64,000 bases of DNA, taken from NCBI GenBank assembly GCA_039680605.1, contig JBDKTA010000044.1, positions 1 to 64,000 on the forward strand. The letters run 5' to 3'. The position numbers were made by a program, and so were the translations under genes. The notes below the pieces were generated by a model. The model saw nothing but the letters and a program-made list of their open reading frames with translations. It was not told the DNA's origin and did no database searches. Below, piece after piece: positions 42,360 through 50,727 of the stretch. Positions within the stretch are counted from its first letter, which is position 1, and each line of letters opens with the position of its first letter. The stretch comes from Planctomycetaceae bacterium (GTDB lineage: Bacteria; Planctomycetota; Phycisphaerae; SM23-33).

Positions 42360-43079
42360 ATGAAAGACCAACATGACAACCTGAGACGCGACGGGCGGGC
42401 GAGCCGGCCGGCGGAGCCCGCGGACGGACTGATGTACCCGGTGGAGAAAGAAACGCTGCCCGTGTGCCAGTTCGGCCCCGGCGGCGTGTATCGAACATCG
42501 TGGCCGGCGCGGTTTGCCCCGCTGCCGCTGGAACCGCCGACGGTCAAGATCGCCGATGAGGCCGCCGCCATGGGCCTGGAAGCTCCGCTGGTGAGCGTCG
42601 GGCCTGAGGGCATTGTCTGGCGGAAACGCCCGCAACGCTCAGGCCCTCACCAGGAAAACCGGGCGGGGTTCTGGACCGCCGTGACGGGTTTGTTAGGGTT
42701 TCGCGAGCACAAGGATGTCGTGCTGGCCAACGCCACGGCCCCGCTGGAGCAGGTGGCGATGGTTCAGCCGCCCGACGCCCGCCTGACGGCCGCGCGGGGC
42801 TACGTGGTCAGCGCGTCGCGTGCAGCCGCGGCTATCCGGGCACAGACCCAGGAGAACGAACATGCAGACAGAGACTTTGACTCCCCGACAGTTGGAGATC
42901 CTGAGGTACATCCGCGACTATCGCAACCGCTGCGGTTATTCGCCGACGATGCAGGAGATGGGCGATCATCTGCAACTGACAAAAGTCACGGTCTTCGAGC
43001 ACGTCGGCGCCTTGGAAAGAAAAGGGCTGCTCATCCGCGGGCCCAAGCACAAGGCTCGCTCTTTGCAGGTCCGGCCTGA
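42360..43079 (+). CDS. Hypothetical protein overlapping the lexA gene
   Basis: This reading frame of 239 aa starts at ATG 42360 and has high third-position GC throughout its first 170 codons, as expected for real genes here. It runs 218 bases into lexA, in a different frame, before stopping. Its sequence (GLMYPVEKETLPVCQ, EHKDVVLANATAPLEQV) matches no family I know. It may be a real gene with an overlapping end, or one that lost its original stop by a frameshift near 42850. The ribosome-binding region of lexA is inside it, so translation may be coupled. The gap before it (42126-42359) shows no clear gene. Confidence 0.45.
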   Translation: MKDQHDNLRRDGRASRPAEPADGLMYPVEKETLPVCQFGPGGVYRTSWPARFAPLPLEPPTVKIADEAAAMGLEAPLVSVGPEGIVWRKRPQRSGPHQENRAGFWTAVTGLLGFREHKDVVLANATAPLEQVAMVQPPDARLTAARGYVVSASRAAAAIRAQTQENEHADRDFDSPTVGDPEVHPRLSQPLRLFADDAGDGRSSATDKSHGLRARRRLGKKRAAHPRAQAQGSLFAGPA

Positions 43080-43473
43080 TTACTCCTTCGAAGACGAAAC
43101 GCCCAGCCGCATTCCGCTGGTGGGGCGCATCGCCGCCGGTGCGCCGATCGAAGCGATCGAGGATACCCGCAGCCTGGATGTGGACGAGCTTTTCGACGTG
43201 GGCGGCTCGACCTTCGCCCTGGAGGTCACCGGCGACAGCATGATCGAAGAGCACATCGCCGACGGCGACTACGTGATCTGCCGCCGCAGCGAAACCGCCC
43301 GCAACGGCGACAAGGTCGTCGCCCTGCTCGCCGACGGCGAAGCGACGCTCAAGACCTTCTACAAAGAAAAAGACCGCATCCGCCTCCAGCCCGCCAATCG
43401 CAAGTACAAACCGATCTACGTCCGCAACGTGGCGATCCAGGGCGTGGTCGTCGGCGTCATCCGCCGCGTCTGA
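42862..43473 (+). CDS. lexA: LexA-type SOS repressor
   Basis: This 203-aa protein is LexA. It has an N-terminal winged-helix DNA-binding domain (GYSPTMQEMGDHL, about 25-67) and a C-terminal S24 self-cleaving domain. The cleavage site is A92-G93 (IAAGAP), the nucleophile S126 (TGDSM) and the general base K164 (ATLK). RecA-stimulated self-cleavage would lift repression of repair genes. AGGAG 6 bases before the ATG sets the start. I see no operator of a known consensus. DinD, usually LexA-controlled in enterobacteria, lies 6 kb away. Confidence 0.93.
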   Translation: MQTETLTPRQLEILRYIRDYRNRCGYSPTMQEMGDHLQLTKVTVFEHVGALERKGLLIRGPKHKARSLQVRPDYSFEDETPSRIPLVGRIAAGAPIEAIEDTRSLDVDELFDVGGSTFALEVTGDSMIEEHIADGDYVICRRSETARNGDKVVALLADGEATLKTFYKEKDRIRLQPANRKYKPIYVRNVAIQGVVVGVIRRV

Positions 43474-45882: not shown

Positions 45883-46048
45883 TTCCTTGCACTTTGTTGT
45901 ACTTTTCACAGCACTTTCGCGGAAGTGCAACAACGGGGCATCCGCTGATAGCCGATGGCTTAAAGCTGATAGACCTCACCACAATTGTCGTTCCTTGCAC
46001 TTTGTTGTACTTTTCACAGCGGTTTCGGTGGAATCGCAACAATCAGTT
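45883..46048. repeat. 58-bp direct repeat pair with TTGCACTT arms
   Basis: Copy 1 is 45883-45940 and copy 2 is 45991-46048. The first 30 bases (from TTCCTTGCAC to TTTTCACAGC) are identical, and the rest is similar. In copy 1 TTGCACTT at 45886 is mirrored by AAGTGCAA at 45923, giving an inverted repeat. The pair lies in the 541-bp gap 45718-46258 between the LamG gene start and the accessory block end. No gene is visible there. Confidence 0.8.
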
Positions 46049-46258: not shown

Positions 46259-48244
46259 CTATATGATCTCAAATCCCACCTCGCGCAGGTATTCAAACGT
46301 CGGATCGTAATATGCGGTCCTGCGGGTGGGATCGGAGGGGTCGCCGTTGGGGACAACGATCACCATTCCCTGGCGCGCCCGGGTCAGCAGGACCCGATAC
46401 GAATTCTTGAGGTACATCTGGCGATGCGACTTGCGGATGTTCTCCCAGCGGTGCCCTCGTTTGAATGACCAGTGCTGCCAGCCCTTGTCGCTGTAGCGGA
46501 AGTCTGCGTCCCACGTTACGCAGGTCCAATCCAACTCCAAGCCCTGCACAGCAAACTCAGTCGCCACATCCTCCAGATAGTAAGAAGATCGAACGTCTTC
46601 TTTAGGATTCAAAAACCAATGGACCGGATCCATGGGCGCCTTCACGTGGATAGCGTGAGGGCGGAGTCGCTCGGCTTGCGATGAAACTATGATCCCGTAC
46701 CTCTCTGAGCCCCTGGCCTTCCATCGCAGCCATTCCTTGGCTGTGCGCACGTCGCGCGTGACCACGAGGGGATACTTGGACCTAATCTTGGCCAGCGTCC
46801 CCCGCGCGGCGTCGCCCTCGAGGTCCAGAATCTGCTTAACGAGCAGCGATACGTGCTCAGCACGAAAGGAACGCATCGAGACGGCCAGATGCAGTTCGTC
46901 CGCGTAATTCACGTGCCGCAGGGCTTTGATTCTTTCCAGCGCCTGCCCGGCCGCGTATTCGCTATCCGTCAGACGCGGCGACACATACACGTGCCAGTCT
47001 GGGTACGCGCGCTGGAGCGACTCGATCCACTCGCTGATGCCAGCCTCGCCAGTATTGATCTCCTGGCCGCCACCGACCAGGCAAACAATGACGGCCCAGT
47101 CGTTGTGGCGGTCCAGGCATGAGATCAGGAACTGGGGCTCGGAAAGGTCGAAGTTGAGAACCTTCTTTTTGTTGCGCATGAACTTGGCCGTCTGCTCTAA
47201 GTCCCACGCGCGCTGGGCCTCGTCAAAGATGGCCACGTGTTCAATCGGCGGACGCAGTCTATCGACTAGGCAATCGTCGCGGAAATGGTGCACGTTCTGG
47301 ATGAACTGCTTGACTGTGCTCCGGGCCTCCCCCAGGGAGAGTCTATTGCCTTTTTCACGCTGGCGTCGGACTTTATCTCGCGCCAACGCTTCACAGAGAA
47401 TCTTGACCAAGGGCCCGTTGCCCGAGAGGAAGACGCTGTAGAGCTCGGTATCCTTGTCACTATGCTTGTTTGCAATATCCAGTCCCACAAGCGTCTTGCC
47501 CGCCCCCGGCACGCCGGTTACGAAGCAGATGGCCTTGTGCTTCTCCCCCTGGGCACGGCTTATAATGTCTGAAATGCAGTTGGATGTGCCTGTGAGGTTA
47601 ATAGCCTCGGCATCGCGTCGGGAGATTTCCTCCACCGAGTGCCCGCGATAGAGCGCCGTGGCGGCCTCAACGATCGTCGGCGTGGGATGATACCGCCCCT
47701 GCTCCCATGCGGCCGCATCAATCGCCGGGCCGTCAACGAAGCTCAGGACGTTCTTGATCACCTCGCCAAGATGGGACCTGGTGCTGCGAATCGGCTGTAG
47801 AATCCGGTCGTTCTGCGGCGTCATGGCAATGGTTGTCGCCGCGCGCCTTGCCTCGGTAGGAATCAGTACCGGCGCGATCGCGCAGCCGTGGCTGGGCTCG
47901 TGAAAGTTCTTCAAGTCCAGCGCGTAATCCCAGACCTGATCGATCGCGTGGCCCGCGAAGTCCTTTTCCCCGACCTTGAACTCCAGAACGAATACAACGT
48001 GATCGACGATGACCACCACATCGATTCGCCGTCCCAGCCGTGGGATGGAGTATTCAAAAAACACCGCTCCGCGGCCGCGGTAGTCCGTCAGCACGTCTGT
48101 GAGGATGGCGATCTCTTCCTGCCAAGCATCGGTCTGTGTCGTTTCGGTAGCAAATTCGGCTCCGCGAGCAAGGGCGCCCAGAATCGCATCTGGCTCCTTG
48201 TCGAGAAATCCCGCAATTGGATCGGAATAGTAATGCCGTTTCAT
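46259..48244 (-). CDS. PD-(D/E)XK nuclease fused to a DUF2075 superfamily 1-like helicase
   Basis: This 661-aa protein has an N-terminal restriction-endonuclease-like fold: D75 (RRIDVVVIV) and E88-x-K90 (VLEFK) are the PD-(D/E)XK catalytic set. A DUF2075 ATPase follows: Walker A GVPGAGKT at 244-251, Walker [10 protein letters not shown] at 339-347, an arginine-finger-like motif [15 protein letters not shown] at 618-632. DUF2075 ATPases are found with restriction or anti-phage systems and in Schlafen-like proteins. It would cut and unwind nucleic acid. It is the last gene of the dinD-HNH-helicase block. No ribosome-binding site is visible. The third-position bases are less GC-rich than in the neighbouring genes. 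Confidence 0.85.
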
Positions 48245-48295
48245 GGGCAGGGGAGATTATGCCAAGTGGGACGTTTGAGAGCAACACCTCAAAGA

Positions 48296-49222
48296 TCACG
48301 AGGCTTTCTCGAACTTGTGGTGCGTCCGATGCCAGCGCAGGCAATCGAGGTCCGGCCGAAGGTAGGGGTTATCCGGCAGAAGAATTTCCCGGCCCGCCAT
48401 TGGCTTGAGCAAATAGGCCTCTTCGCCCGCTTCGTCAAAGCGGGCTTGGGCGACTATTACGCGCATGTCCGGGCTGATGGACCAGAAGCCCCGATCGAAG
48501 AGCCAGTGCGCGGTCTTGGTCAGCGCGATCCCGTTGCCGGGATGATTGGGCCCGCCCTTCTTGAACTGGTGGATGTGGGCTGCATCAAGGGGCGTTACTC
48601 CATCGACCGAAATCATGCGATACCGCGTGAGGGCGCACGTGTAGTTGTAAGCCGGCAGAACCCGAATGGAAAACCTGGCGTCGCGCTTGGCCTGCGAATC
48701 ATCCGCCGTCAGGAAACGTGATGCATCGGCGGCAACAACATCGTCGGGAGGAGCCTCTATCCCAAGAAGAGCGTAGAGTTCCGCCCTTTCGCTTGGCTTG
48801 AAATACTTGGCGATCAGGGTTCGCCGCGCCAGAGCGCGGAAGGATGAATCGCACAGGCATATCCAGAATGAAGGATCCAATTGCGCCAGCTCTGCGCGCT
48901 TGCGATCCTCGGCGGGTCGGCCGTCTGCCTCCAGGGGGTTCCATACTCCCTCGCTGCGAAGATGGAAGAATGGAAGCCTCACGTCAGGCTTTGTGCGTCG
49001 CCTCTCGGCCACGATCTTCCAGTAAGAGCTGAAGCGAAACGCAAGGTCGCCGTCTCTTCTCAGGATCGCGCCGCTGAGTTTTCCCTCCTCAGCCAAATCA
49101 CAGGCGACCAATAGCAAAAGAGGCTTGTGCGGCGCTATCCCCTTGGCGGGGTCGTAATGGATATTGCTGAGAACGCCCAGCCAGCGGATATCTTCAGAAG
49201 CTCCCAGAGTGGACCCGTTCAT
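48296..49222 (-). CDS. HNH endonuclease with possible sulfur-binding N-terminal domain
   Basis: This 308-aa protein has a C-terminal HNH nuclease of the HNH_2 type: the CALTRYRMI strand, DAAHIHQFKKGGPNHPGNGIAL for the metal-binding H and N residues, and HWLFDRGFWSIS. The N-terminal half has APHKPLLLLVACDL and FFHLRSEGVWNP, which resemble the phosphorothioate-sensing (SBD) domain of type IV McrA-like restriction enzymes. If correct, it cleaves DNA with a phosphorothioate backbone. The start at 49222 is not certain, and no ribosome-binding site is visible. Gaps to its neighbours are 51 and 73 bases. Confidence 0.72.
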   Translation of the reverse strand: MNGSTLGASEDIRWLGVLSNIHYDPAKGIAPHKPLLLLVACDLAEEGKLSGAILRRDGDLAFRFSSYWKIVAERRRTKPDVRLPFFHLRSEGVWNPLEADGRPAEDRKRAELAQLDPSFWICLCDSSFRALARRTLIAKYFKPSERAELYALLGIEAPPDDVVAADASRFLTADDSQAKRDARFSIRVLPAYNYTCALTRYRMISVDGVTPLDAAHIHQFKKGGPNHPGNGIALTKTAHWLFDRGFWSISPDMRVIVAQARFDEAGEEAYLLKPMAGREILLPDNPYLRPDLDCLRWHRTHHKFEKAS

Positions 49223-49295
49223 GGGTGAACAAGATATCGGTGCGCCGCGGGATCCGCAAGTACGGATGTCGGGAGGGCTGCAGGCCGCATCCCGG

Positions 49296-50162
49296 TCAGG
49301 TTCCCGCCTTTGTTTCGCCTTCGAAGGGCTCGACTTCTTTGGGTAGCTTCTTCTGCTGCGACGCCAGGCGGCGCTGGACCTTCTTGACGTCCTCGGCCGC
49401 CGGGAGCGACTCGGGGACGATCCCGCGGGCGACGAGCAGGCCGCGAACGTCTCGGTTGTTCTTGACGTGCTCGTCGGCAATGACGCCCTCAGTGCGCAGG
49501 TCGTTGGCCTTGATGTTGAAATTGGTGATCTCGTTGGCGAAGTCCTTGGCCTTGATCGTGATGGTGGGCAGGAAGTCCGCCAGCGGCCGCGTCCTGGGCA
49601 CGCGAAGCTTGGCCTTCATATCCTGCGTGGTGCGTCCGCCAAAGAGGGCGGTATCGCCCTTGCTGCGAATCCGGGCGAAACTCTCATGCGCCCGCAGTCG
49701 GTCGAAGATGACGTCCGAAAGCTCCTTCTCCGAATGAGTGAGTTTCTTTCGCGCGTTGACGCGCTCGGCCTCGGCCAGACGTTGCTCGACTATCTCCTGC
49801 TTGCGGGTCTGGACGGCGAAGTAGGTTTGGGCGAAGGCGATCTGTTCCTTGGCCGGATCGCCGTTCTGGGCGATCAGATAGCAGGCGTAGCGGGTCAGGG
49901 CGATGTCCTGAATCTCCCTGACAGCCCCCGAACCCAGGTCGACCATTTTCGTCAAACCACGAAAATGGTCCTTCGGATCACAACCACTCTTTGTGCAAGC
50001 AGTTATAGCGCGATCAACAACCTTGGCAAAGCTCTCCCACCGTGCATATTCCAGCAGCACTTGCAGGTCGCGGGCACACCAGTATTCCACCCCGCTTTCG
50101 GAGTCCTTGTGGACCATGTCTTCAAAATTCGCATGCAGTCGAACGACGATTTCCTTGTCCAT
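49296..50162 (-). CDS. dinD: DinD-like DNA damage-inducible protein
   Basis: This 288-aa protein matches DinD: the front FEDMVHKDSESGVEYWCARDLQVLLEY, middle ALTRYACYLIAQNGDPAKEQIAFAQTYFA and the tail DEHVKNNRDVRGLLVARGI. In E. coli DinD is LexA-controlled and inhibits RecA strand exchange by binding RecA filaments. AAGGGG lies upstream of the ATG at 50162. It opens a three-gene block with HNH and helicase genes, so the DNA-damage link may be shared. No LexA box of a consensus I know is upstream. Confidence 0.85.
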   Translation of the reverse strand: MDKEIVVRLHANFEDMVHKDSESGVEYWCARDLQVLLEYARWESFAKVVDRAITACTKSGCDPKDHFRGLTKMVDLGSGAVREIQDIALTRYACYLIAQNGDPAKEQIAFAQTYFAVQTRKQEIVEQRLAEAERVNARKKLTHSEKELSDVIFDRLRAHESFARIRSKGDTALFGGRTTQDMKAKLRVPRTRPLADFLPTITIKAKDFANEITNFNIKANDLRTEGVIADEHVKNNRDVRGLLVARGIVPESLPAAEDVKKVQRRLASQQKKLPKEVEPFEGETKAGT

Positions 50163-50379
50163 GTCTTACCCCTTCAATAAGTCGAGCGAACTATTTTCCC
50201 AATGTCGGCAAAAGCATTGCGGCCTTTCAAAGACGATGGGGCAGTCCCCTGTCGGAAAATGCCCTGCGGGGCATTATGCCTTCGCGGCGGCCGGTTCGCA
50301 AGACAGTAGGGCATTTGCAATTTCCAATTGGGAATTTCCAATTGAAGAGGGAACCGCGCCGGCTCCGGCGTGAGCCTTC

Positions 50380-50727
50380 CGGCAAATTGGAAATTGGAAA
50401 TCGGAAATTGGCAATGGAGGAATCGTACCGGCTTGGGCTTCCCGGCAAATTGGAAATTGGAAATCGGAAATTGGCAATGGAGGAATCGTACCGGCTTGGG
50501 CCTCCCGCCAAATTGGAAATTGAAAATCGGAAATTAGCAATGGAGGAATCGTACCGGGTTGGGCTTCCCGGCAAATTGGAAATTGGAAATCGGAAATTGG
50601 CAATGGAGGAATCGTACCGGGTTGGGCCTCCCGGCAAATTGGAAATTGGAAATGGAGGAATCGTACCGGGTTGGGCCTCCCGGCAAATTGGAAATTGAAA
50701 ATTGAAAATTGGAAATCGGAAACGGCA
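50380..50727. repeat. Tandem array of 63-bp units
   Basis: Units start at 50380, 50443, 50506, 50569, 50632 and 50681 (cggcaaattgg). The first four are full 63 bp, the fifth is 49 bp and the last is partial. Between copies there are only a few differences. Since 63 is a multiple of three, one reading frame stays open as a 21-residue repeat with AMEESYR[L/V]G, but nothing suggests translation. The core GGAAATTGGAAATCGG also occurs at 16997 and 22703. The rest of the gap 50163-50770 holds the dinD leader and no gene. Confidence 0.9.

Follow-up and report, generated by a model that had tools for sequence, protein, structure and literature searches.

Three adjacent putative defence genes of a Planctomycetaceae bacterium: a DinD-family protein, a sulfur-binding-domain HNH endonuclease and a nuclease-helicase

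The window, a stretch of 64,000 nucleotides from a Planctomycetaceae bacterium (contig C44 of a 5.23-Mb, 72-contig genome that is 95% complete and 1.8% contaminated), carries a block of three neighboring genes. They encode a DinD-family protein, an HNH endonuclease with an N-terminal sulfur-binding domain (SBD), and a PD-(D/E)XK nuclease fused to a helicase. The three genes are intact, and the block is probably (probability about 0.78) a mini defence island acquired by horizontal transfer, whose members are mechanistically independent, and not a three-part system. Each gene is of a recognizable anti-invader type, but the three do not travel together elsewhere, and the block is therefore taken for an acquired group of defence genes independent of one another. 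This disposes of a false lead, the presumed new three-gene system, and puts three correctly placed genes in its stead, two of which are already listed as PADLOC candidates.

The block and the linkage of its genes

The genes of the block, in window positions, are:

49296-50162, minus strand, DinD-family protein with a BRO-N domain (PADLOC PDC-S13), 288 amino acids
48296-49222, minus strand, SBD-HNH endonuclease, 308 amino acids
46259-48244, minus strand, PD-(D/E)XK nuclease fused to a superfamily 1 (SF1)/Schlafen-group-3 helicase (PADLOC PDC-S41), 661 amino acids

Each of the three reading frames is intact; the intergenic gaps are 73 and 51 bases. An earlier interpretation of this DNA, made from its letters and here called the sequence-only reading, had the coordinates, strand and gaps of the three genes correct. 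It had also remarked on a lower GC content at third codon positions in the block, and the codon statistics bear this out. Among the 20 window genes compared, the values are 0.73, 0.69 and 0.76 in the three block genes and 0.83-0.92 in the other 17. The three also have the lowest relative codon adaptation, and so the most atypical codon use, of the 20.

Of 392 genomes of the phylum, 48 contain the nuclease-helicase family, 17 DinD and 15 relatives of the HNH protein. Thirty-four nuclease-helicase loci were read, most of them with several kb of flank. DinD is near the nuclease-helicase in none of the 34, and an SBD-HNH gene lies directly downstream of it in one (genome G335, locus L041; 30% identical, gene order opposite to that of the window). 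When 84,980 species genomes were scanned, 17 HNH relatives emerged, and neither partner lies within up to 8 kb of any of them, some of the contigs ending close on one side. The DinD loci examined contain neither a nuclease-helicase nor an SBD-HNH gene. Genome G109 is a partial exception, in which a broken DinD gene lies by one for an HNH protein whose N-terminus, on inspection, does not look like an SBD.

The sequence-only reading had proposed a functional unit for damage-triggered restriction of modified DNA and had tied it to co-occurrence of the three families in other genomes. The trio is present at no other locus examined, whether of the 34 nuclease-helicases, the 17 SBD-HNH relatives or DinD, and the families have different partners elsewhere. 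By that reading's own rule the proposed unit therefore fails. Nor were the families undescribed, as the outer two are already in PADLOC as the phage-defence candidates PDC-S13 and PDC-S41.

The three products

The SBD-HNH protein has a sulfur-binding domain at about residues 5-155, with pocket residues H32, K33 and P84, and an HNH domain at about residues 185-265, with H216, N230 and H239. Its ATG start is backed by the alignment, in which relatives begin at about the same place. The protein matches PF13391 above the gathering score. It also matches NF045808, "phosphorothioated DNA-binding restriction endonuclease", over model positions 18-280 of 284 (E 1e-31), with a score of 110.1 bits that is under the curated cut-off of 180 bits and places the protein outside this narrow model. 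An AlphaFold2 model, made from 16 sequences, is confident across most of the N-terminal half. In a comparison of this half with solved structures, ranks 1-7 go to the seven SBD entries (8h0l, 7ccd, 7cc9, 7ccj, 5zmo, 5zmn and 5zmm) with Z 14.1-11.1, and the next, unrelated row has Z 7.2. A profile search also matched SBD-Hga, 8h0l (E 1e-10), with the HK and LP positions aligned. H32, K33 and P84 are the counterparts of H116, R117 and P165 in the sulfur pocket of ScoMcrA (PMC6224610). These three residues and the catalytic H216, N230 and H239 are invariant in the 16 family sequences. The position of ScoMcrA Y164, which is reported to be conserved in only a subset (PMC6224610), is leucine in the window protein and methionine in some relatives. 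The resemblance to SBD seen from the letters thus holds at the level of both fold and pocket. The nearest named relatives are mostly from Planctomycetota metagenome-assembled genomes (MAGs).

From these features we infer that the window HNH protein cuts phosphorothioated DNA. It is most likely a modification-dependent (type IV) restriction enzyme, in which the SBD would bind phosphorothioated DNA and the HNH domain would cut.

The nuclease-helicase matches PADLOC PDC-S41 end to end (residues 1-659 to model positions 1-651 of 657, E 2.2e-285). It has a PD-(D/E)XK nuclease at about residues 35-130 and an SF1/Schlafen-group-3 helicase at about residues 200-640. The helicase matches PF09848 (SLFN-g3 helicase) with 272.7 bits. 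This family is the former DUF2075, the ATPase named in the sequence-only reading. The nuclease motif picked out there (D75, E88-x-K90) is likewise sound: D75, E88, K90, Q103 and Y107 do not vary among 15 nuclease-helicase sequences, down to 32% identity, and the structure model has an alpha-beta-beta-beta-alpha-beta PD-(D/E)XK core at residues 35-129. Conservation across the same sequences extends to the motifs GVPGxGKT, DEAQRAW, QGLE and YRVL of the helicase. The best structural alignments of the motor are to UvrD (Z 14.3) and human SLFN11 (Z 13.2), and EcoR124I HsdR aligns over both nuclease and motor (Z 9.9). These moderate Z values place the modeled protein in its superfamily and carry no functional claim. 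Some Schlafen structures also align over nuclease and motor (residues 7-632, root-mean-square deviation about 8.5), and the Schlafen linker domain and the PD-(D/E)XK domain may correspond.

Most likely this is a single-gene system, whose SF1 motor would translocate on invading DNA while the RecB/HsdR-like PD-(D/E)XK domain cuts. Elsewhere, nuclease-helicase genes are mostly alone among unrelated genes. In a few cases (L032, L035, L036 and L039) they are near genes that, by sequence inspection only, are C5-methylase-like or Vsr-like, and PDC-S41 may provide the cleavage function in some modification systems. No published phage-protection test of PDC-S41 was found; literature searches on PDC-S41/PDC-S13 and on DUF2075 with defense were empty. 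The host genome also contains the C-terminal part of another PDC-S41 gene, 75% identical (locus L058, G000:C39:37309-37674).

The identification of the third product as DinD is confirmed by NCBIfam NF008573 (344.9 bits, cut-off 242). The protein has a PF02498 Bro-N domain and matches PDC-S13 with E 2.3e-110. E. coli DinD modulates RecA, acting on RecA filaments, according to a statement cited in PMC4457935. The damage-triggered character of the proposed unit was taken solely from the name DinD. The upstream regions of lexA and dinD have no common palindrome and no known form of SOS box, the LexA motif of this lineage not being identified. The LexA gene is at 42862-43473 on the plus strand, about 3 kb past the downstream end of the block. 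Elsewhere in the same genome is another, distant DinD gene (L132, G000:C58:11013-11798).

Relatives of DinD are found in diverse settings. Those of L125 and L127-L130 adjoin genes read from sequence as hsdM, hsdS and hsdR, L133 looks similar, and that of L126 lies between type III-like genes. The DinD genes of L125-L130 stand beside or between restriction subunit genes, several with very short gaps, an arrangement that suggests an accessory role in restriction. Plasmid-borne relatives, on several plasmids, lie a short distance behind ParA/ParB or replication genes (L245:4119-6843, L247:4096-6807 and L248:4305-6768), and other relatives stand alone. Because its relatives occur within restriction-modification operons, after the partition genes of plasmids or by themselves, DinD does not appear to be a dedicated partner. 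The BRO-N protein of the window would probably modulate DNA or recombination, independently of the other two products.

Phosphorothioation genes in the host and near relatives of the HNH gene

The sequence-only reading proposed that the genome be checked for phosphorothioation genes. No DndC above the cut-off and no DndD were found in the host genome, of which about 5% may be missing; Ssp genes were not searched with models of their own. The single weak DndC match is rejected: it is to a PAPS-reductase-like gene that lies on contig C54 within a prophage-like region, with no dnd genes adjoining. That region (L138, G000:C54:26000-45000) includes RecT-like and C5-methylase-like genes as well. Since its genome yielded no phosphorothioation genes, the host would tolerate the SBD-HNH enzyme, and a type IV role is compatible with host survival.

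The situation of the HNH relatives is different from that of SBD-HNH enzymes in general, of which less than 3.6% are reported to be linked to dnd genes (PMC7461809). DndC is present above the family cut-off in 7 of the 18 other HNH-bearing genomes tested. It is encoded directly upstream of the HNH gene in L110 (2824-4838) and in L102 (1217-6355), where the order is DndC, HNH, DndE-like, DGQHR. The L102 contig is filed under a Klebsiella pneumoniae MAG and is probably mis-binned; its HNH protein is about 72% identical to the Planctomycetota protein. A compact set of DndC, a short DndD-like ATPase and SBD-HNH is found in L114 (5351-8882) and L134 (4901-8219), and L117 (571-8304) has DndC, DndD, AIPR, a dnd-associated methyltransferase and HNH. 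L106 retains only a C-terminal dndC fragment, next to an HNH gene that is intact. On the HNH tree the dnd label is scattered, with at least four changes forced, and dnd linkage therefore does not define one clade.

These relatives are a more interesting lead than the three-gene block, and they pose a testable question. An SBD-HNH enzyme is expected to cut phosphorothioated DNA, yet here it is encoded directly beside a gene that makes such DNA. Either these enzymes have a new mode of reading the host mark, or the two genes can coexist, for instance through differing sequence specificity. A tentative and rather doubtful interpretation is that the subfamily serves elsewhere as the effector of a compact phosphorothioation system, consisting of DndC, a short or full DndD-like ATPase and SBD-HNH, whose NTPase-free SBD would read the sulfur marks of the host itself. 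On this view the copy in the window would be an orphan that now attacks marked foreign DNA.

Flanking sequences, alternative explanations and known systems

The block is flanked by ordinary genes, for LexA, LamG, DUF72, GH130 and glycosyltransferase proteins. Scans for promoters and terminators gave matches at chance level. Two repeats lie outside the block:

45887-46020, plus strand, two copies (45887-45912 and 45995-46020) of a dispersed, genome-wide 24-mer
50365-50716, plus strand, 63-bp AT-rich tandem array upstream of dinD

Both of the flanking repeats named in the sequence-only reading (45883-46048 and 50380-50727) exist, but neither marks the block. The 24-mer GCACTTTGTTGTACTTTTCACAGC, which underlies the former pair, has 2 copies in the window, 69 in the host genome (G000) and 0 in the genomes of 30 relatives. 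The tandem array is low-complexity, with an AAATTGG-type building sequence, and its sub-unit also occurs elsewhere in the genome. The repeats are ruled out as island ends, the one being genome-wide and the other low-complexity. Copies of the 24-mer are often paired, about 90-270 bp apart, and their conserved core reaches about 45 bp. An Rfam search at the repeats gave no match and no RNA element. An origin of the block as part of a phage is also rejected: IMG/VR scans with single window proteins gave 0 matches, and scans with alignments gave only distant, unlinked relatives of the block proteins.

Several observations weigh against an acquired island of independent genes. The co-orientation and short gaps permit one transcript, an SBD-HNH gene does lie beside a nuclease-helicase gene in G335, albeit in reversed order, and several comparison loci stop at contig edges on one side. 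An insertion event is not visible, because the 30 relatives include no second genome of the window's genus, and the flanking genes are without usable synteny in them. The nuclease-helicase and DinD reside in the same genome 5 times versus 1.9 expected (P 0.03 for this pair, out of three tested), which could reflect weak functional linkage or merely defence-rich genomes. The co-orientation, the short gaps and the G335 neighborhood would suit a true three-gene system, in which DinD would detect or react to damage or single-stranded DNA, SBD-HNH would nick the modified DNA of an invader, and degradation by the nuclease-helicase would start at the nick. Atypical codon use common to all three genes would suit it too. 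Such a system is nevertheless very improbable, given the absence of the trio from every other locus examined, the different partners of its members there, and the lack of an SOS-like motif common to the lexA and dinD upstream regions.

Somewhat less improbable, though still unlikely, is that the genes are orphaned restriction parts with little or no present function, the HNH gene having once been tied to dnd, DinD to a type I/III locus and the nuclease-helicase to a C5-methylase. Relatives beside dndC, hsd-like genes and C5-methylase/Vsr-like genes are consistent with such a history, as are the dndC remnant of L106 and the fragment of a second nuclease-helicase in the host genome. All three frames are intact, however, the HNH and nuclease-helicase proteins retain every invariant residue, and each gene has many relatives that likewise stand alone. 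An acquired cluster of three independent, intact defence genes remains the preferred explanation.

Each product can be compared with a known system. The DinD protein is a full-length match to PDC-S13 and is above the DinD cut-off; it differs in that several of its relatives are inside type I/III restriction loci, and any DNA-damage control of the window gene would be conjectural. The nuclease-helicase shows no difference at the sequence level from PDC-S41, a single-gene phage-defence candidate. Its helicase model aligns with Schlafen group 3 helicases (human SLFN11/SLFN14) and with type I HsdR. The protein has a PD-(D/E)XK nuclease where the Schlafen RNase core sits, and unlike HsdR it is a single polypeptide without HsdM/HsdS.

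IscS-DndBCDE-DndI and SspABCD-SspE (PMC11662687) resemble the SBD-HNH gene in having an HNH nuclease that responds to phosphorothioation, and dndC adjoins the gene in relatives of the window HNH. DndI and SspE have a DUF262 NTPase sensor and act with modification genes, whereas the window protein has an SBD and no NTPase, in a genome where no dnd genes were found. The SBD-HNH protein can also be set beside the SBD-HNH type IV enzymes SprMcrA and EcoWI (PMC7461809). These share the N-terminal SBD fold, the C-terminal HNH domain, a similar layout and the HK...P pocket, and a host without detectable DndC/DndD is as expected for cutters of phosphorothioated DNA. The window protein differs from them in falling below the NF045808 cut-off and in its residue at the ScoMcrA Y164 position, and its subfamily adjoins dndC far more often than does the wider family (PMC7461809).

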